Of a stretch of DNA of 64,000 bases, positions 16,169 to 29,068 are shown in pieces (positions within the stretch are counted from its first letter, which is position 1; each line of letters begins with the position of its first letter). The stretch lies in contig NZ_JBGCUS010000001.1 in NCBI RefSeq assembly GCF_041415945.1, positions 1,364,001 through 1,428,000 of the forward strand. The letters are read 5' to 3'. This DNA comes from Ancylobacter sp. IITR112 (GTDB taxonomy: Bacteria > Pseudomonadota > Alphaproteobacteria > Rhizobiales > Xanthobacteraceae). Under the pieces are notes generated by a model, which ran no database searches, was not told the DNA's origin, and saw nothing but the letters and a program-made list of their open reading frames with translations. The position numbers and the translations under genes were made by a program.

Positions 16169-17122
16169 TCAGGCCGGCGGGCGGCACTCCACCGTCACAT
16201 GCTGCAGCTCATGCACCGGCGCCAGCCGCGCGCGGATGGCTTCGCCGGATACGCCCGGCGGGGCGATCACGCTGACGATGGCGGCATGCGCCTGCGGGCC
16301 GACACGCCAGACATGCAGATCGCAGATGCGGGCATCGCCCGGACCTTCGACCGCCTGCGTCACCTCGGCGGCGAGGCCGGCATCGGTCTCGTCGAGTAGC
16401 ACCGAGGCGGTGTCGCGCATCAGGTTCCACGCCCAGCGGGCGATCACCAGCCCGCCGATGACGCCCATGGCGGGATCGAGCCACACCCAGCCCAGGCTGC
16501 CGCCGGCGATCAGGGCGATGATGGCCAGTACCGAAGTCAGCGCGTCGGCCAGCACATGCAGATAGGCGCCGCGCAGATTATTGTCGCCGCCGCCGACCGC
16601 GTGATGATGCGGGTGATCGTGGTCGTGCGCATGGCCATGAGAGTGACCGTGTGCGTGAGCGTGGCCGCCGCCGAGCAGGAAGGCGCTGACCAGATTGACG
16701 ATCAGCCCCAGCACCGCCACCAGCGTGGCCTCGCCGAACGCCACCTCCTCCGGCTGGTAAAGCCGCAGCAGCGATTCGAACGCCATAACGGCGGCGACGA
16801 TGGCGAGGATCGCCGCCGAGGCGAATCCGGCGAGGTCGCCGACCTTGCCGGTGCCGAAACTGTAGCGGGCATCCGCCGCATGCCGGCGCGCATAGCCATA
16901 GGCGAGGGCGGCGATGCCGAGCGCGCCGGCATGGGTCGCCATGTGAAACCCGTCGGCCAGCAGGGCCATGGAGCCGGTGGTGAACCCGGCGGCGATCTCT
17001 CCGACCATCATCACCGCCGTCAGCAGCACGACGAGGCGGGTGCGCCGCGAATTCTCGTCATGGCCGGCGCTTAGGAAATCATGGGGATGGGTGAAGGTCG
17101 AAATGTCCGGCGGCGGGTTCAT
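16169..17122 (-). CDS. dmeF: CDF-family divalent metal efflux pump (DmeF-like)
   Basis: A 317-residue inner-membrane cation diffusion facilitator. Helix motifs are SMALLADGFHMATHAGALG (residues 51-69, HxxxH) and LHVLADALTSVLA (H189, D193). Between helices IV and V lies a His-rich loop (154-174, alternating H with A/G/D), which gathers metal on the cytosolic side. The His-rich loop and the RcnR-like regulator immediately upstream point to cobalt/nickel export as in dmeRF of rhizobia. The start MNPPPDISTF lies 8 bp after the regulator stop; the longer out-of-family extension is rejected. Confidence 0.88.
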   Translation of the reverse strand: MNPPPDISTFTHPHDFLSAGHDENSRRTRLVVLLTAVMMVGEIAAGFTTGSMALLADGFHMATHAGALGIAALAYGYARRHAADARYSFGTGKVGDLAGFASAAILAIVAAVMAFESLLRLYQPEEVAFGEATLVAVLGLIVNLVSAFLLGGGHAHAHGHSHGHAHDHDHPHHHAVGGGDNNLRGAYLHVLADALTSVLAIIALIAGGSLGWVWLDPAMGVIGGLVIARWAWNLMRDTASVLLDETDAGLAAEVTQAVEGPGDARICDLHVWRVGPQAHAAIVSVIAPPGVSGEAIRARLAPVHELQHVTVECRPPA

Positions 17123-17130
17123 GGCGGCAC

Positions 17131-17406
17131 CTAGCGGGTGTAGCGGCGGATGGCGTCCATCAGGTCGCGCGCGCCCTCGGCCCGGGCGGCGGGGGTGAGA
17201 TCCGGATCGGCGACATGGGCATGGAGATGCTCCTCGACGATCTTCTCCATCAGGCCGCTGATCGCCCCTTTGGTGGCCGCCACGAGATGAAGCAGGTCGG
17301 CGCAATCGGCGCCGCCGGCAAGGCTGCGCTCGATGGCGGCCACCTGCCCGGCAATGCGCTGGACGCGGGCGAGCAGGGCGGGATTGGGTGTGGATAGGTG
17401 CGACAT
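17131..17406 (-). CDS. dmeR: RcnR/CsoR-family metal-responsive repressor (DmeR-like)
   Basis: A 91-residue all-helical repressor. The metal ligands of the Ni/Co sensor RcnR are conserved at identical positions: H3 in MSHLS, C35 in GGADCADLLH, H60 and H64 in EEHLHAHVAD. That pattern separates it from copper-sensing CsoR and formaldehyde-sensing FrmR. It likely represses its own operon with the CDF pump and is released by Co or Ni. The start codon is only 3 bp from the operator-like G-tract, so the transcript may be leaderless or have a very short leader. Confidence 0.9.
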   Translation of the reverse strand: MSHLSTPNPALLARVQRIAGQVAAIERSLAGGADCADLLHLVAATKGAISGLMEKIVEEHLHAHVADPDLTPAARAEGARDLMDAIRRYTR

Positions 17407-17409
17407 AGG

Positions 17410-17426
17410 ATAGGGGGGTACCCTAT
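17410..17426. promoter_or_regulatory. RcnR/DmeR-type operator (G6 tract with ATA/TAT flanks)
   Basis: On the plus strand ATA-G6-TA-CCC-TAT: a six-G tract inside an imperfect inverted repeat, the layout known for RcnR-family sites. It touches the dmeR start region, so binding would block transcription of dmeRF. Confidence 0.65.
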
Positions 17427-17564
17427 GGGGCGCGGGCGTGCAAGAGGCGCCTCGCCCTCATGCGTAGGGCTCTGCCGGCAGCCTCGGCATGAGCGTCAGG
17501 CGGCACGGCGCTGCCACCGCCGGCCGGTTCGACGGCACTGTCGGCGGCACTGTTGGCGGGCAGC

Positions 17565-17870
17565 CTAAAGCTCGCTGAGCGGAAGCTGCAGTTTCAGGTC
17601 GAGGTCGGCATCCTCAAGGCCGAAATGCTGGCGCAACTCGGCCATCTTTTCTTCCAGCCGCAGCAAGGCGAGCCCGAGGCGCTCGGTTTCGTCCTCGGAC
17701 AACGTGCCACCCTCCACCCGACGGATCGCCTGCCGCTCGATAACCTGGCGCAGCGTCTCCACCAGCATCAGCACCAGCTTGACGAGGCCCTGCTCGACTT
17801 TCTCCGGGTCGATGTCGATCCGGCCGCGCAGCGCCTTCTCCAGGGCTTCGGCGGACAGGGGCGCGGTCAT
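17565..17870 (-). CDS. gvpK: Gas vesicle protein GvpK
   Basis: A 101-residue protein matching the GvpK core: RIDIDPEKVEQGLVKLVLML, then VIERQAIRRVEGGTLSEDE and RLGLALLRLEEKMAELRQHF. It is mostly helical and a required minor assembly factor in known gvp sets. The ATG at 17870 overlaps the stop of the upstream gvpF/L gene by 4 bp, so the longer frame to 17918 is rejected. It is the last gene of the 16-gene operon; no clear intrinsic terminator follows. Confidence 0.95.
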   Translation of the reverse strand: MTAPLSAEALEKALRGRIDIDPEKVEQGLVKLVLMLVETLRQVIERQAIRRVEGGTLSEDETERLGLALLRLEEKMAELRQHFGLEDADLDLKLQLPLSEL

Positions 17871-18562
17871 TCGGGGCCTCCGGACAGATCGGGATCGGAA
17901 AAGGAATAGGGCGGCCACGGGCCGGTGACGGTGATGCCGAGATCCGGCCGCAGGCGCTGCAGCGCGGTGACATCATCGAGAAAGGCCGAGGCGCTGCCGC
18001 GCGGGACGAGGAAGGAAGCGCGCAGGTCCGGCTGCGAGGGCGAGCGCGCCCACAGCAGCCGGGAGCGGGCATGGGCGGCCAGGGCGTCATGCGGGAAGGC
18101 GGCGCTGGACGGTGGCCAGCCACGCTCGCGCCGGACCAGCGTGCGCAGATGCGAGGCGCCGGGACCGAGCCCGGGCGCTCCGGCGGCGGGCACCGGGCTG
18201 GGATCGTCCCCTTCGGCCAGACCGGCCACGCGCAGCGCAAATTCGACGCAGTGCCGCACCCGGTCGATCTGGGCCCGCAACTCGGTGTGATAGCGCGCCA
18301 GCAGGCGCAGGCAGGCGGCGCTGTCCTCCACCACCGTCCCGAAGCGCAGCGGAAGCACCGGCCGCCCGTCCGACAGCGCGGCCACCACCTCCTGATGACG
18401 CCATATCTGCGAGGGCTCCGGCGCCACCGTCGCATCCGCCGCTTCGCTCGCGGCGCAGGCGAGGCCGTTGGTTTCCTCAAAGAACGGTGCCGCCCCGCCA
18501 ATGCCCGGCGGAAGCGGTATCTTCGGCGGCGGAGATTCGAGGATGGCGTAGAGGTACAGCAT
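17867..18562 (-). CDS. GvpF/GvpL-family gas vesicle protein (third paralogue)
   Basis: A 231-residue GvpF/L protein with the family start MLYLYAILESP, the middle RPVLPLRFGTVVEDSAACLR and the C-terminal TGPWPPYSFSDPD. GvpF/L proteins bind GvpA and help nucleate the shell. This copy is shorter than the two standard GvpF/L of the operon and has a Pro/Ala-rich linker at about 118-135. It is coupled to gvpK by an ATGA overlap and lies 10 bp after the GvpM/S-like gene. Confidence 0.9.
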   Translation of the reverse strand: MLYLYAILESPPPKIPLPPGIGGAAPFFEETNGLACAASEAADATVAPEPSQIWRHQEVVAALSDGRPVLPLRFGTVVEDSAACLRLLARYHTELRAQIDRVRHCVEFALRVAGLAEGDDPSPVPAAGAPGLGPGASHLRTLVRRERGWPPSSAAFPHDALAAHARSRLLWARSPSQPDLRASFLVPRGSASAFLDDVTALQRLRPDLGITVTGPWPPYSFSDPDLSGGPE

Positions 18563-18572
18563 GGGCGTTGCC

Positions 18573-18809
18573 CTAATCGGCGTTAAGGTCCCGCGCGTCC
18601 GGCGGAGAAAGGGCCGCCTCGCGCATCCGATTGACCGTATCGGTCGAGGTGAGAAGCAGCTTGAGGCCGAGATAGACCAGATCGATGCCGGCCACCGAGA
18701 TCGTCGCCTCGCCCCAGATCACCAGCCCCTTGTGCAGGGCGCGATCGAGCAGATCGGCGACGGCGATCTCGCCGGAATGGCGCGACGGCATGGGGGGAAG
18801 TTCAGACAA
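18573..18809 (-). CDS. Gas vesicle GvpA-like minor protein (GvpM/GvpS type)
   Basis: A 78-residue member of the GvpA/J/M/S superfamily. The conserved core LLDRALHKGLVIWGEATISV then AGIDLVYLGLKLLLTSTDTV has the two-strand, two-helix pattern. The WGE...DLVYLGL variant is closer to GvpM/GvpS than to the main shell protein. It probably caps or nucleates the vesicle. The start overlaps the upstream gvpL by 8 bp. Confidence 0.88.
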   Translation of the reverse strand: MSELPPMPSRHSGEIAVADLLDRALHKGLVIWGEATISVAGIDLVYLGLKLLLTSTDTVNRMREAALSPPDARDLNAD

Positions 18810-19599
18810 GCCCGCCTCCAGTGAAATGATAGGGCGCCCAGGGGCCGGTCAGCACGTAGCGGGCGCCCAGATGGGCATGCGCCCGCTCCAGTTCCGCCAG
18901 ACTGGCCCGCCATGCCGCGTCGTCCTCCGTCGCGACGAGGTAGGCGCCGTTGAGCGCCATCGTCGCGGCCTGCCCGTGCAGCTCCGGCGGCTGCAGCGGA
19001 TTTGCGACCGCCGCCCGTGCCCCGGCGGCGAGACGTTGATGGCTGAGGCTGACGCAGTGGTCGAGCGCGGCCTCGGCGGCGGCGCGGGCTTCCTGTTCCT
19101 CCTTCTTGCGGCGGAAGAACGCCAGACCCGCACCTGCCCCGATCGGTTCGGCGGTGCGGGCGGTGCGCGGGGCAGGGTCGAGGAACAGCTTCACCCCCCA
19201 TTCCCGGGCGCCGCGCAGCCGGGCGACGCTTGCCTCCAGCTCCTCCCGCCGCGCCAGCAGCGCCTTGGCCACGGACACGGGCGACGCGAACAGGGTGCAG
19301 AATTTCAGCGGCAGCACGGTCGCCACCGGCAGCAGCGCCGATACGACGTGCTGATGGGCGAGCACGCAGGCGCGGCTCCAGGTGGCATCGGCAAGATGCG
19401 CGCGCAGCGGCTCCTGGCCGAAGACGTTCTCCGGCACCGCGCTCGCCAGCACCGCCAGGCTGCAATCCGCCAACGCGGGTTCGCCGAGCGCCGCCGCCGG
19501 GAGTTGCGCGACCGATATGCCGGGCAGGATGCCTTCCGGCGGCAGAAAGCGTTCGGCCTCCGCCGTGTGGTCGGCCGTGATGGCATAGACATAGAGCAT
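18802..19599 (-). CDS. gvpL: GvpL/GvpF-family gas vesicle protein
   Basis: A 265-residue GvpF/L protein. Family features are the start MLYVYAITADHTAEA, VVSALLPVATVLPLKFCTLF in the N-terminal ferredoxin-like half, and the terminal LTGPWAPYHFTGGG. The middle contains a lysine/glutamate-rich insertion (FFRRKKEEQEARAAAEAAL). It likely chaperones GvpA or forms part of the nucleation complex. A 114-bp spacer separates it from the J-domain fusion gene upstream, the longest gap in this half of the operon; AAGGGGG serves as the ribosome-binding site. Confidence 0.9.
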   Translation of the reverse strand: MLYVYAITADHTAEAERFLPPEGILPGISVAQLPAAALGEPALADCSLAVLASAVPENVFGQEPLRAHLADATWSRACVLAHQHVVSALLPVATVLPLKFCTLFASPVSVAKALLARREELEASVARLRGAREWGVKLFLDPAPRTARTAEPIGAGAGLAFFRRKKEEQEARAAAEAALDHCVSLSHQRLAAGARAAVANPLQPPELHGQAATMALNGAYLVATEDDAAWRASLAELERAHAHLGARYVLTGPWAPYHFTGGGLV

Positions 19600-19713: not shown

Positions 19714-20727
19714 TCAGTCGAGCGGGAGCGTCTCCTGCCGGCGCAGCGACACCGGCGCGCCTTCGCTCTCCAGCACACGCAACGCCTCGGACAGCGCGAT
19801 GAAGCGCGTCGCTTCCGTGTCCGATCCGCCCCCCGGCTCGGCATCGTCGCGTCCCGCACCCCCCATGGGCACCAGATCGGGATGTGTCTCGCGCGCGGCC
19901 CGGCGATAGGCCGCGCGTACCGTCGCGGCGTCCGCGCCAGCCGGCACGCCGAGCATCGTGCGCGCCTCGGCGACACGCGCTCTCGGGGCGAGATCAACCT
20001 GCACCGAGGCGAAGCTGTAGGGCGGCAGGGGGCCGACGAGGCGGAAGGTGAGGGCGCCGGCGCCGTCGGCGTCGAGCGACTCCAGCGCCGCGCCCAGTTC
20101 CGCCTCCGCCGCCCGATCGACCAGCAGCGCCATTTCGACCACGCCAGCGGGATCGGCCGGTTCGCGCACCGTGATATCCCGTGTCGCCCGGCGCAGCCGG
20201 TCGATCACCCGGCTCCGCAGCCGGCTCCGTTCGGCCGCGACGAGCCCGGCGAGGAGGGCGCCCAGCGCCTTGCGCTCGCTCTCACCCCCCTCCGCCGCCG
20301 CGCGCACCAGCTCGGCGGAGACGCCGGGAAGCAGCCGCGCCACCACCGTGTCGAGCTGCCAGGTGACGGACAGGCTCATCTCGATGCTGTCGCCCACCTC
20401 CTGCAGGCCCCCTGCCAGCACGGCGCCGCCCGCTTCCAGCAGATGGCGCACGCGGCTTTCATCCTCGATCACCGTGCCCAGGGCGACCGGAAGCACCGGC
20501 GCCCGCGCCAGCAGCCGCTCCATCACCTTCTGGCTCGCCAGCAGCCACGGCAGCAGCGCGCTGCGCTCCCGCCCTTTCAGCCCGCCTTCCGGTGCCGCAC
20601 CGACCACGGCGGCGAGCGCGCCGGCGGCGATGGCGCGCAGCCCCGGCGGCAGCCCTTCGCCCTCGTCGAGCAGGGCCGGGTCGAGCCGGTGGGCCGGCAC
20701 GACGGCGAAAACGAGAAGACCGTTCAT
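19714..20727 (-). CDS. GvpF/L protein fused to a C-terminal J-domain
   Basis: A 337-residue two-part protein. Residues 1-245 are GvpF/L-like (start MNGLLVFAVVPAHRL; PVLPVALGTVIEDESRVRHL; ending RLVGPLPPYSFASVQVDL). Residues about 253-325 form a DnaJ-type J-domain: AEARTMLGVPAGADAATVRA, then AAYRRAARETHPDLVP with the HPD tripeptide at 282-284, and a final helix RFIALSEALRVLES. The HPD motif implies stimulation of a DnaK-type Hsp70, so the protein may recruit Hsp70 to GvpA folding intermediates. The start at 20727 overlaps the AAA+ ATPase stop by 4 bp. No break between the halves is seen. Confidence 0.9.
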   Translation of the reverse strand: MNGLLVFAVVPAHRLDPALLDEGEGLPPGLRAIAAGALAAVVGAAPEGGLKGRERSALLPWLLASQKVMERLLARAPVLPVALGTVIEDESRVRHLLEAGGAVLAGGLQEVGDSIEMSLSVTWQLDTVVARLLPGVSAELVRAAAEGGESERKALGALLAGLVAAERSRLRSRVIDRLRRATRDITVREPADPAGVVEMALLVDRAAEAELGAALESLDADGAGALTFRLVGPLPPYSFASVQVDLAPRARVAEARTMLGVPAGADAATVRAAYRRAARETHPDLVPMGGAGRDDAEPGGGSDTEATRFIALSEALRVLESEGAPVSLRRQETLPLD

Positions 20728-22850
20728 GCCGCGGGCTCCCGCTTCATGGCCAATAGCGCGCCGGTGAAATGCTCCGCCGTCACCGCGAGGCTGGCGGGCT
20801 CGGGGGCGGAGCCCGAACCTGTCGTCACCAGCGCGCGGATGGCGGCGACGCCGGCCTGCCGGCACAGCGCCTCGATCTCGGCGCCCACCATGCCCTCGGT
20901 CGCTCCCGCGAGCGCGTCGAGGTCGACATCCGGCGCGAGCGGCATGCGCCCGGCGTGAACGTCGAGGATGGCCCGGCGGCTGGTATGGTCCGGCGCGTGG
21001 AACTCGACCAGAAAGTCGAAGCGCCCGGGCCGCAGCAGCGCGGCGTCGATCTGGTCGAGCCGGTTGGTGGCGGCGAGCACGGTGACGCCGCGCAGCTCTT
21101 CGACACCGTCGATTTCGGTCAGCAACTGCGCCACCACGCGGTCGGTGAGGGCGCCGCCAGTGCCGCCGCGATTGGGGGTGAGCGTGTCGATCTCGTCAAA
21201 GAAGATGATGCAGGGCGCGGTCTGGCGCGCCTTGCGGAACACCTCGCGCACGCCGCGCTCGGATTCGCCGGCCCACATGGACAGGAGCTGCGGGCCCTTC
21301 ACCGCGATGAAATTGGCGCCGCTCTCGCCGGCCAGCGCCTTGGCGAGCAGCGTCTTGCCGGTGCCGGGAGCGCCATAGAACAGGATGCCCTTGGGCGGCT
21401 GGATGCCGGCCGCGGCGTAGAGCGCGCCATGGCGGGTCGGCCATTGCACTGCCTCGACCAGCAATTGCTTGATGGCGTCGAGCCCGCCCACATCCGACCA
21501 TCGCTTGTGCGAGGGCTGGGTGACGATCTCGCGCAGCGCGCTCGGCTGGGTGCCGGCCTGGGCGGCGATGAAATCCTCCGCCGTGACCACCAGCGCGGCG
21601 AGCTTTTCGTCCGGGACGCGGCCATCGGCGAAATTTATGTCGGGGATCAGCCGGCGCAGGGCGCTCATCGCCGCTTCCCGGCACAGCGCCGCGAGGTCGG
21701 CACCGACGAAGCCCGGCGTGCGGAAGGCGAGACGGGCGAGGTCGACATCCCCGGCCAGCGGCATGCCGCGCGTGTGGATCTCCAGTATCTCGCGGCGCCC
21801 GCCCTCATCCGGCACACCGACCAGGATCTCGCGGTCGAACCGGCCCGGCCGGCGCAGGGCGGGGTCGATGGCGTTGGGAATATTGGTGGCGGCGATGACG
21901 ATGACCTGGCCGCGCGACTGCAGCCCGTCCATCAGTCCCAGAAGCTGGGCGACGACGCGGCGCTCGACCTGGCGGTCGCCGCTCATCTCCTCGCGCTTGG
22001 GAGCGATGGCGTCGAGCTCGTCGACGAAGATGATCGACGGGGCGTTCTTCTCCGCCTCGTCGAACAGGCGGCGTAGCTGCGCCTCGCTGGCTCCGTACAT
22101 CTTGTCGATGATCTCGGGGCCGTTGACATGGATGAAATGGACATTGGCCTCGCGCGCCACGGCGCGGGCGATCAGCGTCTTGCCGGTGCCGGGCGGGCCG
22201 CACAGCAGCACCCCCTTGGGCGGGTCGATGCCGAGATGCTGGAACACTTCCGGGTGCTTCAGCGGCAGTTCGATCATCTCGCGGATGCGGCGCACCTCGT
22301 TGGAGAGCCCGCCGACATCCTCATAGGTGACCGCGTTGCCTTCGCTGCCGCTGACGAGGCAGCGAAGCTGGGTGTCCGGGCCGATCATCACCGGGCCCGG
22401 CGGATCGGAGCTTTCGACGGTGAATTCGCGGGTCTGGGCTCCGATCAGCGAGGCGCGGACCCGGTCGCCGGCCAGCATGGGAATGCCGTCGAGCAGGCGC
22501 CGCAAGGTGCGCGTATCCGGCGCGCGGGCGCCGCTGCCAACCTGCGTCAGGCTGACGGCGCGCGCCGGCGCCACAAGGGCCGGGTGCAGCGTGACCTGCT
22601 CGTCGAGGCTCGCGCCGGCATTGACGCGGGCGAGCCCGTCCATCTGCACCAGGTTCTGGCGCCGCATGCCGGCATGGGCCGGCATCACCCGGGCGACGGT
22701 GGTGCGGCGGCCGATGATGGACACCACGTCGCCCGTCTCCACGCCCAGCCGTGCCATGTCTTCGGGATCGAGACGGACCAGTCCCCGGCCGACATCGCGG
22801 GTCGGGGCCTCGCAGACGCGAAAACTGGCGGCGGCAGGGTCATCGGCCAT
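20724..22850 (-). CDS. CDC48/VAT-type two-ring AAA+ ATPase
   Basis: A 708-residue protein with an N-terminal double-psi-barrel substrate domain (about 5-165: RVCEAPTRDVGRGLVRLDPE, DVVSIIGRRTTVARV) and two AAA+ modules. D1: Walker A GPPGTGKT 218-225, Walker B IIFVDELD 273-280. D2: Walker A GAPGTGKT 493-500, Walker B IIFFDEID 548-555. Arginine-finger segments RRPGRFDR and LRPGRFDF are present, so both rings look active. CDC48/VAT proteins unfold or extract proteins. The position in the middle of the gvp operon with overlaps at both ends implies a role in gas vesicle assembly, quality control or disassembly. Confidence 0.93.
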   Translation of the reverse strand: MADDPAAASFRVCEAPTRDVGRGLVRLDPEDMARLGVETGDVVSIIGRRTTVARVMPAHAGMRRQNLVQMDGLARVNAGASLDEQVTLHPALVAPARAVSLTQVGSGARAPDTRTLRRLLDGIPMLAGDRVRASLIGAQTREFTVESSDPPGPVMIGPDTQLRCLVSGSEGNAVTYEDVGGLSNEVRRIREMIELPLKHPEVFQHLGIDPPKGVLLCGPPGTGKTLIARAVAREANVHFIHVNGPEIIDKMYGASEAQLRRLFDEAEKNAPSIIFVDELDAIAPKREEMSGDRQVERRVVAQLLGLMDGLQSRGQVIVIAATNIPNAIDPALRRPGRFDREILVGVPDEGGRREILEIHTRGMPLAGDVDLARLAFRTPGFVGADLAALCREAAMSALRRLIPDINFADGRVPDEKLAALVVTAEDFIAAQAGTQPSALREIVTQPSHKRWSDVGGLDAIKQLLVEAVQWPTRHGALYAAAGIQPPKGILFYGAPGTGKTLLAKALAGESGANFIAVKGPQLLSMWAGESERGVREVFRKARQTAPCIIFFDEIDTLTPNRGGTGGALTDRVVAQLLTEIDGVEELRGVTVLAATNRLDQIDAALLRPGRFDFLVEFHAPDHTSRRAILDVHAGRMPLAPDVDLDALAGATEGMVGAEIEALCRQAGVAAIRALVTTGSGSAPEPASLAVTAEHFTGALLAMKREPAA

Positions 22851-23181
22851 GATGGTCTCCCGGCGCCGCGACCGCTTCCTCGCCCGGCGGCAGGACGCTG
22901 GCTTCAAGCCGGTCCAGCCGCTCGCGCAGCAGCCGGTTCTCCTCCGCAAGCTGGCGCGCCTGGGAATTGAGATGCGGGTCGCTCTGCCACCAGTTGATGC
23001 CCATCGACATCGCCCGGTCGACGGAGGCGACCACCAGCCGCAGGCGGATGTTGAGCAGTTCCACCTCGACCAGCGAAATGGTGATGTCGCCCGCGATCAC
23101 GATGCCCTTGTCCAGCACGCGCTCGAGAATATCCGCCAGTCCGACGGCCTGGAGGGAATGCTCCATGCGCTGTTCGTTCAT
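22840..23181 (-). CDS. gvpJ: Gas vesicle protein GvpJ
   Basis: A 113-residue GvpA-superfamily minor shell protein. The core LADILERVLDKGIVIAGDIT then SLVEVELLNIRLRLVVASVD is followed by the GvpJ-specific GINWWQSDPHL. After it a C-terminal coiled-coil-like extension (QARQLAEENRLLRERLDRLE) ends in a disordered tail. GvpJ is thought to sit at vesicle tips and start assembly. Its 3' end overlaps the AAA+ ATPase start by 11 bp, so the ATPase is translated in coupling with it. Confidence 0.92.
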   Translation of the reverse strand: MNEQRMEHSLQAVGLADILERVLDKGIVIAGDITISLVEVELLNIRLRLVVASVDRAMSMGINWWQSDPHLNSQARQLAEENRLLRERLDRLEASVLPPGEEAVAAPGDHHGR

Positions 23182-23212: not shown

Positions 23213-23476
23213 TCACGGCGCGTCCTCCATCACCTGGTCGCGCAGATAGCGGCGCATACGGTGATAGCTGGTCACATTGCCGTCCGGATCGAGCGTGATG
23301 CGGTAGGCAGCCAGCAGGTCGGTGGAGGAGGGGATGCGCTTCAGTTCCAGCAGGTTGACCGTCATCTCCCAGCCTCCGTCGGTGGCATTGAATTCGGAGA
23401 CGCTGTCGGCGGAAAAGCCCGTCAGTTCCTGAACCTGCGTCTTCACCTTGCGGATCAGTTCCAATGTCGTCGCCAT
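23213..23476 (-). CDS. gvpO: Gas vesicle protein GvpO
   Basis: An 87-residue protein with the GvpO pattern: ELTGFSADSVSEFNATDGGW, MTVNLLELKRIPSSTDLLA, and YRITLDPDGNVTSYHRMRRY ending in RYLRDQ. GvpO is an accessory factor needed for vesicle formation in haloarchaea and actinobacteria. It lies 31 bp before gvpJ in transcription order. Confidence 0.9.
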   Translation of the reverse strand: MATTLELIRKVKTQVQELTGFSADSVSEFNATDGGWEMTVNLLELKRIPSSTDLLAAYRITLDPDGNVTSYHRMRRYLRDQVMEDAP

Positions 23477-23572: not shown

Positions 23573-23824
23573 CTAGAGCCCGCTGCGCATGCGTTCCCGG
23601 GCGATCTTGAGCCGCTGCAGCAGGACGGTTTCCTGCGCCTCATAGGTGTCCTCGTCGATCGCGCCGGCTTCCAGCCGCTGTTCGAGATCCAGCAGCGCGG
23701 CGCGGATATTGCTCTCGTCATAGAGGGTGCGTTCGGCCTGGTCGGCGATGAGGCGGGCGAGCCAGAGCACGCCCTTGAGCGGCCCCACGGCCGGCGCGAA
23801 CACGACATCGGTCAGTACGCCCAT
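23573..23824 (-). CDS. gvpG: Gas vesicle protein GvpG
   Basis: An 83-residue protein starting MGVLTDVVFAPAVGPLKGVL followed by the helical WLARLIADQAERTLYDESNI and LEQRLEAGAIDEDTYEAQE, the usual GvpG form. GvpG is a minor assembly protein that interacts with GvpF/L. The ATG at 23824 is chosen; the frame extension to 23914 overlaps gvpF and is not family-like. A 96-bp spacer follows before gvpO. Confidence 0.93.
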   Translation of the reverse strand: MGVLTDVVFAPAVGPLKGVLWLARLIADQAERTLYDESNIRAALLDLEQRLEAGAIDEDTYEAQETVLLQRLKIARERMRSGL

Positions 23825-23835
23825 GGTGATTGCCC

Positions 23836-24636
23836 CTACCAGTGAATGGTGATGGTCACGAAATTGTAGGGCGGTACCGGGCCGACATATTTGAAGGTGA
23901 GCCGGTGGCCCCACTCCTCATCCATGGCGCGGATGGCGGCATCGAGCCGGGCTTCGACCGCCTCGTCGACCAGAAAGGCGGCGTTGACGATCATCCGGTC
24001 GCCGATCACCTTGTTGAGGCGCGTCTTGTGCACGAAGGGGCGCACCCGCTCCAGAATGCGCTCCTCGTCCTCCTGCCGCTTGCGCTGCAGCGCCTGGCCG
24101 ATCAGTTCGCCGAGCTGGACACGCTCGTAATGGCTCTGTTCCGGCGAGCGGCCGACCAGCGAATCGCGCAGCCGGCGAATGGCGGGATTTTCCGCCAGCA
24201 CCTCGTCGAAGATCGTCTCCTCGCGCCACGATACTTTCAGCCCGAGCTCCATCCGCCCGTGCATCTGGCCGAGCAGGCCGGCGAGCTCGTCCCGGCGCGC
24301 CCGCAGGATCTTCTCGACGATCGTCTCCGCATCCGAGCCCACCGTGCCGAAGCAGACGGGAAGCAGCGTATGCCGCGCCATCACTGTTTCCAGCACCCGT
24401 GTATGGGCGAGCATGTTGCGCCGGCTATTGTCATATTCGATGCGCGGTGAGTTGCTCACCACCGCCGCCAGCCGGCCGAGGGTGATCGTGTGCACCTCGT
24501 CACCGCGCCCGCCGATCGCCGGGACATCGAAGCTGTCCGGTGCCGGCGCCTCGATGATGCCATAGAGATATTTGCCGTCGCCGGTCGCTGCGTCGGCGGA
24601 TTGGGCGGTGCCGGGGGCGGAGAGAGTGGCGCTCAT
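23836..24636 (-). CDS. gvpF: Gas vesicle protein GvpF
   Basis: A 266-residue, most canonical GvpF/L of the operon: GKYLYGIIEAPAPDSFDVPA, MARHTLLPVCFGTVGSDAET, GLKVSWREETIFDEVLAENP (the F-type middle), and the C-terminal LTFKYVGPVPPYNFVTITIHW. GvpF contacts GvpA and forms part of the nascent vesicle complex. The start overlaps the upstream gene's stop by 4 bp. About 20 disordered residues precede the domain. Confidence 0.93.
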   Translation of the reverse strand: MSATLSAPGTAQSADAATGDGKYLYGIIEAPAPDSFDVPAIGGRGDEVHTITLGRLAAVVSNSPRIEYDNSRRNMLAHTRVLETVMARHTLLPVCFGTVGSDAETIVEKILRARRDELAGLLGQMHGRMELGLKVSWREETIFDEVLAENPAIRRLRDSLVGRSPEQSHYERVQLGELIGQALQRKRQEDEERILERVRPFVHKTRLNKVIGDRMIVNAAFLVDEAVEARLDAAIRAMDEEWGHRLTFKYVGPVPPYNFVTITIHW

Positions 24637-25646
24637 GGCGGGCTTTCAGCGTTGAGCGGCACAGCGGCCAGCCGCAGGCTCAGCGGCGTGCCGCCGGCGG
24701 AAAGGAAGTCGGACAGGCGCCGCAGGATGCGGGTGCACCAGGCTGCAATGGCCTCGCCGCTCCATTCCGGCCGCAGGTGGAGAAAACAGGCGTGCAGATC
24801 GCGGTAAATGCCGGTGATTTCGCCCGCCATGCGCGCCATCAGCCCGTCGACCAGCAGCCCATCCAGTTCGGCCGCCTCCGTCGACCGGCCGGCCTGGACG
24901 AAGGGCGCCACCTCCAGAGCGAAGGGGAGCGCGATCTGCGCGTCGGCGAGGCGCAGCAGCGGGCGGAGCTGGTCCTTCGGCAGCGTCCCCGCGGCCAGCG
25001 CGGCGTCCGCCCGCCGTTCCAGCTCGGCACGCTGCGGCAGGTTGTTCACCGCCCGCGCCAGGGTGATGCGGTCGAGGTGGCGCAGCGCATCGGCGAAGCC
25101 ATGGGCGATGCAGAAGCCGTTGGCGAGCAGTTCCGTCACCGCGCCGGTCGACAGCGTGCGGCCGAGTTCCGCCGCCAGCGGGGCCAGCGCCGCCGGCCCG
25201 TCGGCTTCCACCGTCAGCACGCGCGCCGCCGTCGTCGCCGGGGCCTCCGACAGCGGATGGGCATGCTCATGCGCCAGCAGCGCCTCGGCGGCGAGGCCAT
25301 CGTCCCAGAAGCCTTCCGCCACCATGATCGGCCGGTTGACGAAGACGAAGCACTCATCGGCGTGACGCGGATCGTAGAGATTGACCATCGGCCGCTGCGG
25401 CAGCCGCATCAGATCGTCGGCCAGCAGACGCTGCGTGCGCGCCAACTGCCCGACCAGCGGCGCCAGATCGTCGAGCACGAACAGCGTCACCGTCCCGTGC
25501 GGCCACACGCCCTGCTCCGCAAGACGGCGCACGACACGTTCCTCCGCCTGCACCACGGTCGATATGTCGACCGCGCAGTCGGTGACGACCCGGATGCGGG
25601 TGCTCCCGACATGGAACGTGCCGATGCCCTCCGCGACACCGCTCAT
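24633..25646 (-). CDS. Unrecognised protein with HExxH motif in the gas vesicle operon
   Basis: A 337-residue cytoplasmic-type protein without signal peptide. The only recognisable motif is LLAHEHAHPLSE with H126-E127-x-x-H130, the zinc-metallopeptidase signature, on a helix (AAEALLAHEHAH). A preceding beta-rich part (HGTVTLFVLDDLAPLVGQLA, VNLYDPRHADECFVFVNRP) resembles the edge of a metzincin-like sheet. The third metal ligand is not obvious: E143 or a later acidic residue could serve. The second half is helical. The context between gvpH and gvpF, with an ATGA overlap to gvpF, ties it to vesicle biogenesis. A degenerate, non-catalytic fold is equally possible. Confidence 0.75.
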   Translation of the reverse strand: MSGVAEGIGTFHVGSTRIRVVTDCAVDISTVVQAEERVVRRLAEQGVWPHGTVTLFVLDDLAPLVGQLARTQRLLADDLMRLPQRPMVNLYDPRHADECFVFVNRPIMVAEGFWDDGLAAEALLAHEHAHPLSEAPATTAARVLTVEADGPAALAPLAAELGRTLSTGAVTELLANGFCIAHGFADALRHLDRITLARAVNNLPQRAELERRADAALAAGTLPKDQLRPLLRLADAQIALPFALEVAPFVQAGRSTEAAELDGLLVDGLMARMAGEITGIYRDLHACFLHLRPEWSGEAIAAWCTRILRRLSDFLSAGGTPLSLRLAAVPLNAESPP

Positions 25647-25650
25647 CGGC

Positions 25651-26250
25651 TCAGACCTTCCGCAGCTTGACCTGGAGGATGCCGTTGCGGTGGCTGCGCT
25701 CCAGCGAGGCCGGGTCGACGGGGGCGGGCAGCGTCACCGTCTTGGCGTAGAGATGCCGGCCGGTCGTCGCCAGAGCGAGCCGGTCGCCGTCCAGCGACAG
25801 CGAGATTTCGCTTTCCGCCACGCCCGGTATTTCGGCGGTGACGATCACCTGCTCGTCCTCGTCAAACACATCGACCAGCGGCTCGCGCACATCCTCGACC
25901 ACCGGACCCTTGGCGGTCGGGTTGAGATTGCCGAAGCGCCGCACCTGCGGAACGCCGCCAATCCCGGTGCGCAGGCTGAAGCCATAGACGCCACGGGCCT
26001 GATCGCCGAGGCCCTTGACCCTGAACTCGCCTTCGCGCTGAACCTCTTCGGCCTTCTCCACCAGCGAGCCGAGCATTTCGACCAGCCCGCCAAGGCCGCG
26101 AAAGGCAGCGCCGAGATCGGCCATCGCCTCGGAACGCGGCGCGCCTTCCGGCCGGGCGCCCGGCTTACGGTGCGCGGCCCCATCCTTGCCGCCGGCGTCC
26201 TGGCCCCCCTCGTCCTTGCTGCCGTCCCTGCTGTCGTCCTGGCCGGTCAT
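25651..26250 (-). CDS. gvpH: Hsp20/alpha-crystallin-type gas vesicle chaperone (GvpH-like)
   Basis: A 199-residue protein with a hydrophilic N-terminal half (many D, G, K) and a C-terminal alpha-crystallin domain from about residue 108: PLVDVFDEDEQVIVTAEIPG, then ESEISLSLDGDRLALATTG and the ending HRNGILQVKLRKV. In haloarchaeal operons GvpH is the Hsp20-like member that keeps Gvp proteins soluble. The ATG at 26250 is chosen because upstream frame sequence is Arg/Pro-rich and unlike the family. It is 28 bp after the coiled-coil gene and 4 bp before the HExxH gene. Confidence 0.88.
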   Translation of the reverse strand: MTGQDDSRDGSKDEGGQDAGGKDGAAHRKPGARPEGAPRSEAMADLGAAFRGLGGLVEMLGSLVEKAEEVQREGEFRVKGLGDQARGVYGFSLRTGIGGVPQVRRFGNLNPTAKGPVVEDVREPLVDVFDEDEQVIVTAEIPGVAESEISLSLDGDRLALATTGRHLYAKTVTLPAPVDPASLERSHRNGILQVKLRKV

Positions 26251-26278: not shown

Positions 26279-26632
26279 CTAGTATTCGATGAGCGCATGC
26301 GACGGCGCCGCCGGGGCGGCGGCGGGCTTCTGTCTTTGCCGGGACCGGCGCGGTGCCGGCGTCTGGGGCTGCGGGGAGGGCGGAGCGTCGAGGAGAAGCA
26401 CCCGCATCGAGGCGAGTTCCTCATCCACCTTCGCCAGCATCCGCTCGGCCTCGGCCTGCCGGGCGCTCCACGCTTCCAACTCGCGCAGCAGGCGGGTGCG
26501 TTCGTTCTCCAGCCGCGCGAATCGGCTGACCGCCTGCGTCCGGTTGGCCGGGGCGGAGCGGGTCAGCCGGGTCTGCACCGTCGCCACGTCGCGCAGGCCG
26601 CGTGTGCGGGCGGTTTTCTTGTCGCTGTTCAT
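26279..26632 (-). CDS. Small coiled-coil protein of the gas vesicle operon
   Basis: A 117-residue protein. The centre (FARLENERTRLLRELEAWSA, then RQAEAERMLAKVDEELASMR) has a heptad-like hydrophobic pattern over about 50 residues. The N-terminus is basic (NSDKKTARTRGL) and the C-terminus is Pro/Gln/Arg-rich. The ATG overlaps the gvpN stop by 4 bp. I do not recognise the family; it could be an adaptor or structural accessory protein. Confidence 0.7.
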   Translation of the reverse strand: MNSDKKTARTRGLRDVATVQTRLTRSAPANRTQAVSRFARLENERTRLLRELEAWSARQAEAERMLAKVDEELASMRVLLLDAPPSPQPQTPAPRRSRQRQKPAAAPAAPSHALIEY

Positions 26633-27687
26633 GCCGGCGTCCCCTGCGCTGCGGGCTTGGCGCCGGCGCGGCCCGGGCGGGCCAGGGAGGGGCAATGCGT
26701 CTGGATCAGCGCGTAGAGCGCGGCGCGCCGCTGGTCGCGCGCCTCCGTCTCGGCGCGCTGGCCGGAGAAGATGCGCGATTCCAGCGCGTCGGAGCAGAGC
26801 TGAACGAAGCGGGGATCGTCGACCGACACCTCAAAGCCCTCCTGCGCCGCCACCCGGGCGATCATCAGGCTGGCGCGCAAGGTCGGCGTCTGCTGGTAGT
26901 CGCCGGAAGCCCGGAACGCCCGTACCAGATCAATGATCCGGGCGGCGCTCTTCTCGGGCAGTCCGGTGCGGGCGGCGGCGACCGCCAGTTCCATCGCCCG
27001 GTCGGGATAGTCCACGTCGATGGTGGCGAGGCGGTCGGCGAGCGCGTCCTGGCTCGCATGCACGCCGGCATATTCCTGCGGGTTGCTGGTGAAGATCGCC
27101 CGGAACTCGGGGTGAACCTTGATGTAGCATTCCTCGCGCGCCTGGGCGGGGAGGAACAGCATCCGTTCCTCGAACACGCCGAGCAGCACGTTGTGGGTCT
27201 CGGGCCGCGAGCGGGTGAACTCGTCATAGACCAGCGTGAAGCCCTCGCGGCAGGCGGTGGTCAGCCGGTGGTCGGTCCAGTGCTGGTTGGCCGTCTCTTC
27301 CAGCTTGGTGACGTTGTGAATGAACTGGTCCACCACCTTGCGGTAATGATAGCCGCGCTGCGAGCCGACGAGATCGGCGGTGCCGAGTTCGTTGTCGCCG
27401 GTGATGATGATGACCGGCCGGCCCATCTGCGCCGCCACATGAAGCGCCAATGTGGTCTTGCCGGTGCCCGCAGGCCCGCGGAAATGCAGGGGGTAGCCGG
27501 CATTGAGGAAGGCAAGCCCGCGCCGGGTGAGGTCACGCACCTGTTCGGTCTCGACGAACCCGCTGCGCGGCCGTGGAGTCAGCGCGGATGGGGCGGAGCG
27601 TCCGCCGGCCTTTGGCTGGCCCGAACCTTCTCCCGCCCCAAACCCGGGAAGAACCGAAATCGGCTCCTTCGATGTGGCCTCAACCAT
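26629..27687 (-). CDS. gvpN: Gas vesicle AAA+ ATPase GvpN
   Basis: A 352-residue MoxR-related AAA+ protein. Walker A GPAGTGKT 71-78, GDNELGTADLVGSQRGYHYR, Walker B TLVYDEFTRSRPE (D155, E156), and sensor 1 AIFTSNPQEYAG. GvpN ATPases promote growth of gas vesicles. The start MVEATSKEPISVLPGF at 27687 is preceded by AAGGAG. The C-terminal 50 residues are Ala/Pro-rich, longer than usual. About 100 bp separate it from the upstream GvpC-like gene. Confidence 0.95.
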   Translation of the reverse strand: MVEATSKEPISVLPGFGAGEGSGQPKAGGRSAPSALTPRPRSGFVETEQVRDLTRRGLAFLNAGYPLHFRGPAGTGKTTLALHVAAQMGRPVIIITGDNELGTADLVGSQRGYHYRKVVDQFIHNVTKLEETANQHWTDHRLTTACREGFTLVYDEFTRSRPETHNVLLGVFEERMLFLPAQAREECYIKVHPEFRAIFTSNPQEYAGVHASQDALADRLATIDVDYPDRAMELAVAAARTGLPEKSAARIIDLVRAFRASGDYQQTPTLRASLMIARVAAQEGFEVSVDDPRFVQLCSDALESRIFSGQRAETEARDQRRAALYALIQTHCPSLARPGRAGAKPAAQGTPA

Positions 27688-27787
27688 GCCGAAACTCCTT
27701 GTCCTTGCCGAACGCGCCATTGCCGCCAGTGACCCGGCGCCGGCGTGGTGACGACGCCGGCGCTCGCTCTTGATCGCCCCGGGCCGG

Positions 27788-28627
27788 TCACATGGACTTG
27801 GCGGAGGGGCCCTTGTCGCCCGCCGGCTTGGAACCGCCCGACTTGCCGGTGTCAGCCTTCGCGACATCGACCTTGGCGGGTTCGACCTTGGCGGGTTCAA
27901 CCTTGGCGGTTTCGACCTTGACCGGCTCGGCCTTGGCGGTTTCGCTCTTGGCGATCTCAGCCTTGGCCGGTTCGGCGGGGACGGCGGCTGCCGGTACGGG
28001 CTTGGCCGGCTCCTCGACGGCCGCCACGACTTCCGTCGGGGCCGCGGTCTTCTCAGTTTCGGCCTTTGCCGGCTCGACCTTGGGAGGCTCGGCCTTAACA
28101 GGGGTGCTCGCGGCGACGACCGACGAGGCGCGCCCGAGCCACAGGCTGGCGGCCTGCTGGCGGTCCTTGGTGAGCGCCGCCAGGAAGGCGAGATTGTCCG
28201 CCGTCAGTTCCTGCACCTCGCGGCCGAGGGCGGCACGGTCCTGCTGGCGCTGGCGCAGCGCCTTGGCAGCCTCCGCGCCGCGCAGCGCGGACTGGGTGCC
28301 GAGCCATTTGCGCGTGGTGCCACGCAGCGCGGCGAAGCCATCGGCGAGGGCGCGGTCGAGCCGCGCGGCTTCCTGGGCGCGGGCCTTGCGGTAGCGGTCA
28401 ATCCGCTCATCCGCCTCGCCGAGCAGAATGGCGGTGCCCAGCTTGATGCTGCGCAGGGCCTCGTCGAGGCGCTGCTGCTGTTCCGAGGCCATCCGCCGCC
28501 GCGCGGCCTGGGCCTCGCTGAGGTGGCGGGCGGTATCCTTGCGAATGCGACCGAGCGCCCCGTGGCGCGCGTCGCGCGTGGCGGCAAGGGTCGCGACGGT
28601 ATCTGAAATCTGGCCAGCCAAAGACAT
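27788..28627 (-). CDS. Helical repeat protein, candidate GvpC (outer-surface gas vesicle protein)
   Basis: A 279-residue protein directly after gvpA. Residues 1-165 are almost all helical with recurring segments: HLSEAQAARRRMAS (35-48), LLGEADERIDRYR (68-80), WLGTQSALRGAEA (108-120), FLAALTKDRQQAA (148-160). The conserved Leu positions are spaced 33, 40 and 40 residues. Cyanobacterial GvpC has 33-residue helical repeats with a similar FLSxTxxxRxxxA pattern. Residues 175-260 form a Lys/Ala/Glu/Pro/Val-rich tail with AKVEP-type repeats, not known from classic GvpC. The likely role is binding the outside of the shell and stiffening it. Similarity is from pattern only. Confidence 0.7.
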   Translation of the reverse strand: MSLAGQISDTVATLAATRDARHGALGRIRKDTARHLSEAQAARRRMASEQQQRLDEALRSIKLGTAILLGEADERIDRYRKARAQEAARLDRALADGFAALRGTTRKWLGTQSALRGAEAAKALRQRQQDRAALGREVQELTADNLAFLAALTKDRQQAASLWLGRASSVVAASTPVKAEPPKVEPAKAETEKTAAPTEVVAAVEEPAKPVPAAAVPAEPAKAEIAKSETAKAEPVKVETAKVEPAKVEPAKVDVAKADTGKSGGSKPAGDKGPSAKSM

Positions 28628-28855: not shown

Positions 28856-29068
28856 TCACGCCGCCTGGGCGCTCGCGGTGAGCCCGACGGCCTCGGCGTA
28901 CTTCAGGTAGGTGTCGACGCCGGCGACGACGACGCGGGCCTCGACGGCCAGCAGTTCGATACCGACCAGCGAAACGCGCACCCAGGCATCGACCACCACG
29001 CCCTTGTCGAGGATGCGATCCACGACTTCGGCCAGGCTGCTCGAGGCGTTGATCTTCTCTACGGCCAT
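28856..29068 (-). CDS. gvpA: Gas vesicle main structural protein GvpA
   Basis: A 70-residue shell protein, usual length. The near-invariant core is present: [20 protein letters not shown], then [20 protein letters not shown] and [15 protein letters not shown]. GvpA polymerises into the ribbed, gas-permeable wall. The ATG at 29068 has GAGGAGG upstream; the long frame extension to 29320 is not used. It is the first gene of the operon and is followed by a 228-bp spacer with stem-loops, which fits its need for very high expression. Cells with this locus should float or appear bright in phase contrast. Confidence 0.97.

Follow-up and report, generated by a model that had tools for sequence, protein, structure and literature searches.

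The DNA considered here (the window) is a stretch of 64,000 nucleotides from Ancylobacter sp. IITR112, in which a run of 16 co-directional minus-strand genes, from gvpA (29068) to gvpK (17565), specifies a gas vesicle system, and within that run, at 20724..22850, lies a gene for a two-ring AAA+ unfoldase of the CDC48 family. The 14 genes from gvpN onward are tightly packed, with gaps of -11 to 114 bp, and those around the CDC48 gene are gvpA, gvpN, four of the F/L type, gvpG, an O-like gene, gvpJ, gvpS and gvpK, together with one for an Hsp20-like protein. The CDC48 reading frame itself runs on the minus strand from an ATG at 22850 to a stop at 20724 and specifies 708 amino acids. It overlaps a gvpJ-like gene (23181-22840) by 11 bp and a gene for a GvpF/L protein with a J-domain (20727-19714) by 4 bp (ATGA), and on both overlaps the coordinates agree with the original prediction, which had been made from the DNA letters alone.

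Membership of the family is assigned by profiles, motifs and a tree. The protein scores 847.9 bits against TIGR01243, passing the curated cut-off of 802.65, and Pfam places CDC48_N once (87.8 bits) followed by AAA and AAA_lid_3, two stretches of each, giving an N domain and two rings, D1 and D2. In a motif alignment each ring keeps Walker A (GPPGTGKT and GAPGTGKT), Walker B (with DE in both), sensor 1, an aromatic pore loop (KMYG and MWAG) and an arginine-finger segment (LRRPGRF and LLRPGRF), and this bears out what had been predicted of the Walker and arginine-finger segments; these Walker, arginine-finger and pore-loop residues are the ones that matter in the family. It is the single CDC48 above the cut-off in the 4.99 Mb genome, where the other three hits at E<=1e-20 range from 96 to 261 bits. 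GvpN (26629..27720, minus strand; TIGR02640, 428.6 bits) is likewise an AAA+ ATPase of the same operon, but it is encoded by a separate gene, has one ring and finds AAA_5 as its best Pfam match, and TIGR02640 (cut-off 266.8) is not in the 25 best NCBIfam rows of the CDC48 protein, the lowest of which scores 27.5 bits.

The best solved relative is archaeal Cdc48/VAT (PDB 5g4f, VCP-like ATPase; 668 bits over residues 10-673), with which the N domain, the two rings and the Walker, pore-loop and arginine-finger motifs are held in common. The window protein differs in falling outside the ordinary archaeal rows, in being encoded in a gvp operon and in having no PSV-type motif at its C-terminus. That motif occurs in 2 of 47 gvp-clade rows as against 13 of 19 others, and since the tail is missing the window CDC48 is not classed as a proteasome partner. 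Alphaproteobacteria are not known to have a 20S proteasome. The C-terminus of archaeal VAT bears an HbYX motif, the dock for the 20S proteasome, according to the accessible part of one paper (PMC5070193).

A CDC48 branch inherited with gas vesicle clusters

How general is the company that this gene keeps? Among GTDB genomes the 80 loci with CDC48 nearest to the window protein were taken (best 80 of at least 532, and so a biased sample), and in flanks of up to 10 kb at least two gvp genes are present in 62, one in 6 and none in 12, just 4 of these last having 8 kb of sequence on each side. The 62 span 13 named phyla, plus two unassigned loci. A second sample was picked by GvpN (E<=1e-40), independently of CDC48, in phyla that were those of the seed genomes; GvpN-positive are 19 of 251 Chloroflexota, 17 of 218 Desulfobacterota and 6 of 199 Acidobacteriota. 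CDC48 (E<=1e-180) is present in 39 of these 42 genomes, or in 35 of 38 once the four that came from the CDC48 loci (the seeds) are set aside, as against 4 of 60 GvpN-negative genomes of the same three phyla (the first 20 listed for each; two of the four matches above the cut-off), and the Fisher p for 35/38 versus 4/60 is 1.2e-18. None of 20 GvpN-negative genomes of the window's order has it. The two genes share a contig in 27 of the 42, always 0.8 to 6.7 kb apart (23/23 without seeds), and are on separate contigs in 12; the three genomes with no CDC48 match are Desulfobacterota (L163, L164, G1081). For two of them the absence is put down to the limits of the assemblies: the L163 contig stops within an ArsA gene, right after which its sister cluster L189 has CDC48, and L164 is a contig of 3.7 kb. 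A search for CDC48 homologues beside the gvp loci of other genomes had been proposed with the original prediction, and in 35 of 38 GvpN-positive genomes they were found, less than 7 kb away wherever the pair shares a contig.

Of 238 genomes belonging to the window's own family, 14 gave a match to CDC48; the nine above the cut-off all sit among gvp genes, in three arrangements, and none of the five below it does (flanks of about 1.5 kb). Distribution within the genus is patchy, with CDC48 in 4 of 17 listed genomes, counted irrespective of gvp genes. Among Halobacteriota, 24 of 216 genomes are GvpN-positive and all 24 have CDC48, as archaeal controls likewise do, with 8 (one a seed) having it within 15 kb. 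Plasmid-borne gvp clusters were represented by 25 records, 16 of them from Halobacterium: on the Methylocella and Methylosinus plasmids CDC48 is about 4 kb from gvpN, and on Halobacterium pNRC200 the distance is 27 kb, the CDC48 there grouping with haloarchaeal ones.

An IQ-TREE phylogeny of 71 rows, hand-picked from 132 (LG+G4 without mixture, several forks being open), separates with 100/100 support a branch of 55 rows, 47 gvp-linked, 6 unlinked and 2 unknown, from 16 rows of which 1 is linked. Gvp-linked rows of this tree come from 12 named phyla. CDC48s of the ordinary archaeal type and the Rhizobium, Methylobacterium and Sphingomonas ones lie outside the clade, and the archaeal gvp-linked rows L082, L176 and L177 fall within it; the sole linked row outside, L175 (G1226), is an ordinary archaeal CDC48 0.8 kb from gvpN, an exception left standing. 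The original prediction had been staked on the existence of a gvp-linked clade; the clade is present, fully supported, and the CDC48 gene therefore belongs to the vesicle system. Simple taxonomic inheritance in alphaproteobacteria is rejected, as joining the six gvp-linked alphaproteobacteria to the Rhizobium, Methylobacterium and Sphingomonas CDC48s costs 193 log units (approximately unbiased (AU) test, p=2.8e-6, named after the first tree was seen). In that first tree (FastTree, 132 rows) the gvp label changes 20 times, as against 41 with shuffled labels, and gvp linkage has therefore been gained or lost several times. CDC48 distances follow GvpN distances over 59 loci (r=0.85; best of 2000 permutations 0.21). 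Across many phyla the CDC48 clade has been passed down together with gvp clusters. It is marked by the N-domain residues M56, R63 and Q69, in place of which outside rows mostly have W, E or T, and R, and these may contribute to the recognition site.

In the GvpN tree G247 (L193) is sister to the cluster of an Octadecabacter plasmid (L161; 100/100), next to the window's group (98/89). The Octadecabacter cluster is without both CDC48 and M337, a neighbour dealt with below. In G247 the far end of the gvp cluster carries a CDC48, one whose grouping with the window's CDC48 is rejected (AU p=0.0008) and whose position inside the clade is unsupported (61/16). The simplest reading is of loss, then regain of a gvp-clade CDC48, and this speaks for function.

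There is also a relative without the N domain, its gene neighbourhood taken from one cyanobacterial record, Nostoc sphaeroides plasmid p4, in which the last annotated GvpL/GvpF gene is followed by one for a two-domain ArsA and then by one for a tandem AAA protein of 613 amino acids (L195:9801-13584). No CDC48_N is among the 25 rows listed of its 40 in Pfam. Its 25 best matches in the study loci score 566-670 bits and are CDC48 open reading frames (ORFs) wherever coordinates were compared, and it lies within the gvp clade (100/100) on a long branch. At least 120 homologues exist, the named ones mostly cyanobacterial (Nostoc, Anabaena, Microcystis, Planktothrix, Arthrospira, Nodularia). As far as the accessible portion of Cai 2020 goes, the Anabaena gvp cluster is described as ending at gvpW, and in E. 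coli it yields irregular vesicles. A viral origin was considered and rejected on the 5 pattern matches in viral_contigs, none of which encodes a relative. The Nostoc relative, used as query in a scan, matched 14 loci at 29-46% identity.

Partners of CDC48 and the remainder of the operon

For 78 gvp loci the nearest recognised gene on the same strand within 1.5 kb of CDC48 was recorded. On the upstream side this was Hsp20 at 48 loci and GvpJ at 17, on the downstream side GvpF at 55, and 76 of the 78 have at least one recognised neighbour. The window's Hsp20-like small heat-shock protein, which is GvpH-like (25651..26250, minus strand), reaches 137.4 bits with the NCBIfam archaeal Hsp20 model (cut-off 140) and 20.6 with Pfam HSP20 (cut-off 20.8). 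The GvpF/L with the C-terminal J-domain (19714..20727, minus strand) matches Pfam GvpL_GvpF with 146.6 bits and DnaJ with 26.3, the cut-off there being 27.8. Its HPD (282-284) is invariant in 21 aligned rows, chosen for HPD, and a comparable HPD was found in 20 of 29 loci by reading of the matches, two further matches being judged spurious. In an AlphaFold2 model with a pLDDT (predicted local distance difference test) of 91.9, a helix at 267-281 and another at 302-323 flank the loop with the HPD (pLDDT 55-69). J-domain GvpF/L proteins occur in the gvp clusters of several phyla, mostly adjoining CDC48, and the fusion suggests that Hsp70 is recruited when vesicles are assembled.

M337 (24633..25646, minus strand), encoded two genes upstream of gvpG, is a putative gluzincin-like zinc metalloprotease of an unnamed family. 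It has an invariant HEHxH and, downstream, an invariant E172 and N176 (E172xxxN176); H126, E127, H130 and E172 are invariant in 30 rows, and E172 is probably a zinc ligand. The predicted model (pLDDT 90) finds structures of M1/M61 aminopeptidase type at middling Z. A protein search gave 31 members, unnamed or 'hypothetical', and all 13 loci in which M337 was seen hold gvp genes, which makes M337 a candidate vesicle protease on the strength of its motifs and neighbours.

Two-domain ArsA ORFs were seen in many CDC48-bearing gvp loci (L009, L046, L040, L070, L062 and others), with 31 matches over all loci, some of the loci being duplicates. Castillo and Saier 2010 (PMC2963123) describe two-domain ArsA as a neighbour of gvp genes and hsp20 in several phyla; the main text of their paper has zero occurrences of the term CDC48. 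The gvp-cluster ArsA is, like CDC48, an extra ATPase beside gvp genes, but ArsA-type rather than an AAA unfoldase.

The rest of the operon, all of it on the minus strand, begins with the major shell protein GvpA (28856..29068). It is followed by an unnamed protein in the gvpC place (27788..28627), for which neither Pfam nor NCBIfam has a match; of 279 amino acids and by eye Lys/Ala-rich, this may be a GvpC analogue. Between gvpN and the Hsp20-like gene is orf117 (26279..26632), a small protein with the same position in related clusters. After M337 come a GvpF/L (23836..24636), whose best NCBIfam match is cyanobacterial GvpF at 135.3 bits, below the cut-off of 350, a GvpG-like protein (23573..23824; gene order and similarity to annotated gvpG), a GvpO-like protein (23213..23476; similarity to annotated gvpO of Octadecabacter) and the GvpJ-like member of the GvpA family that overlaps CDC48 (22840..23181). 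Beyond the J-domain gene are a GvpF/L (18802..19599; profile match), a GvpS-like GvpA-family protein (18573..18809), a further GvpF/L (17867..18562; profile match) and GvpK (17565..17870; similarity to annotated gvpK of Octadecabacter). Downstream of gvpK, at 16169-17457 on the same strand, a small protein and a membrane protein look by eye like a metal-sensing regulator and cation-efflux pair.

Possible functions of the vesicle-linked CDC48

The reading that we favour, and for which we put the chances at about even, is that CDC48 serves as a gas-vesicle-dedicated unfoldase or disaggregase for hydrophobic GvpA-family proteins, in quality control and recycling. Its linkage with gvp genes is a matter of observation; the substrate we infer. 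Extraction or unfolding of misassembled GvpA, or vesicle dismantling, which the original prediction had put forward, is in keeping with an unfoldase whose two rings are intact, with its Hsp20 and J-domain partners and with the absence of the C-terminal tail. A CDC48 hexamer would thread GvpA-family clients (GvpA, J, S) or their aggregates through its central pore, Hsp20 would act as holdase for them, and the J-domain GvpF would be the docking factor presenting them and perhaps recruiting DnaK. Subunits, once unfolded, would be released for refolding and re-use rather than fed to a proteasome, the outcome being quality control in shell assembly and recycling of misassembled or collapsed shells. 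In disaggregation by Hsp20, DnaJ/DnaK and ClpB, a holdase, a J-domain and a two-ring threading ATPase act together; here CDC48 would stand in ClpB's place, with the J-domain fused to GvpF. The accessible part of a vesicle review (PMC9501494) lists GvpF as the sole Gvp interacting with GvpA in split-GFP assays, and has GvpH preventing GvpM aggregation and vesicles without GvpH being weaker. In Halobacterium, heat induces both cdc48d and hsp5 (PMC1971269); the NRC-1 plasmid record has an Hsp20 gene directly upstream of a CDC48 gene, and we read this pair as hsp5/cdc48d.

More tentatively, and with appreciably less confidence, the CDC48 branch may be a standing, overlooked part of most bacterial gas vesicle systems, those of cyanobacteria included in N-less form, and together with Hsp20 and the J-domain GvpF it may take apart vesicles that have collapsed or been wrongly assembled and return their GvpA to use. 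It would then be a bacterial segregase dedicated to one organelle.

Several observations weigh against a dedicated unfoldase. Four of five GvpN-positive alphaproteobacteria have a linked CDC48, and the fifth, G262, has none, its whole genome having been searched; the gvp plasmids of Octadecabacter arcticus and Spartinivicinus, judged from the plasmid sequences, are without it as well. Of the 24 Halobacteriota with GvpN, 16 have their nearest CDC48 more than 15 kb from gvpN or on a separate contig. Because such clusters exist, CDC48 is not universally needed for making vesicles. Gvp genes are missing from the surroundings of six rows within the clade: L013, L026 and L035, each with Hsp20 adjacent, L182 and L183, each the second copy of a genome that does bear gvp genes, and L165, whose genome is GvpN-negative. 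For the J-domain and for Hsp20 the scores fall slightly below curated cut-offs, and the Octadecabacter plasmid has a J-domain GvpF and no CDC48, the J-domain being therefore independent of CDC48.

Could CDC48 instead be needed for vesicle building, for example by extracting GvpJ, S, K or GvpF from a nucleation complex so that the shell grows, in parallel to GvpN? The overlaps with gvpJ and gvpF in the window, and the GvpF gene so often downstream, would suit such an assembly motor, as would the irregular vesicles from the Anabaena cluster ending at gvpW, since in the related Nostoc cluster the CDC48-like gene is just beyond that end. The Anabaena outcome has, however, many other possible causes, and there are both natural gvp clusters without CDC48 and, in the available part of the review (PMC9501494), listed vesicle-forming gene sets without it, so that we regard this alternative as possible and rather doubtful. 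It is improbable, to our minds, that CDC48 unfolds Gvp proteins for M337 as a protease of vesicle turnover, though the invariant HExxH, the ExxxN downstream of it and the predicted fold, which may be M1-like, would suit a protease, M337 keeps the company of gvp genes at every locus where it was seen, and M337 and CDC48 are jointly absent from the Octadecabacter plasmid. Less likely still is that a general Hsp20-CDC48 stress pair, serving the whole cell, was caught by mobile gvp clusters, for, while the pair does occur outside such clusters (e.g. pNRC200 and the three Hsp20-adjacent rows above), the several distinct gene orders in which CDC48 is placed, its rarity in GvpN-negative relatives and the replacement of the expected CDC48 in G247 are hardly explained by retention without selection.

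The family is known and the NCBI name of such proteins, 'CDC48 family AAA ATPase', has no mention of vesicles; the vesicle role is likely to be new. Among open-licence papers, so far as their text was accessible, we found no report of a gvp-linked CDC48, nor any linking of the two in those with both 'gas vesicle' and 'CDC48', and CDC48 is not mentioned in the accessible parts of the vesicle review (PMC9501494) or the Anabaena cluster paper (Cai 2020). Gas vesicles have been studied, and engineered as ultrasound reporters, by way of haloarchaeal, Bacillus, Serratia and cyanobacterial clusters. If CDC48 is a normal partner of such clusters, it would provide a concrete enzyme for the correction and removal of highly stable shells, and there would be, spread through bacteria, a branch of CDC48 whose business is probably one cell structure.

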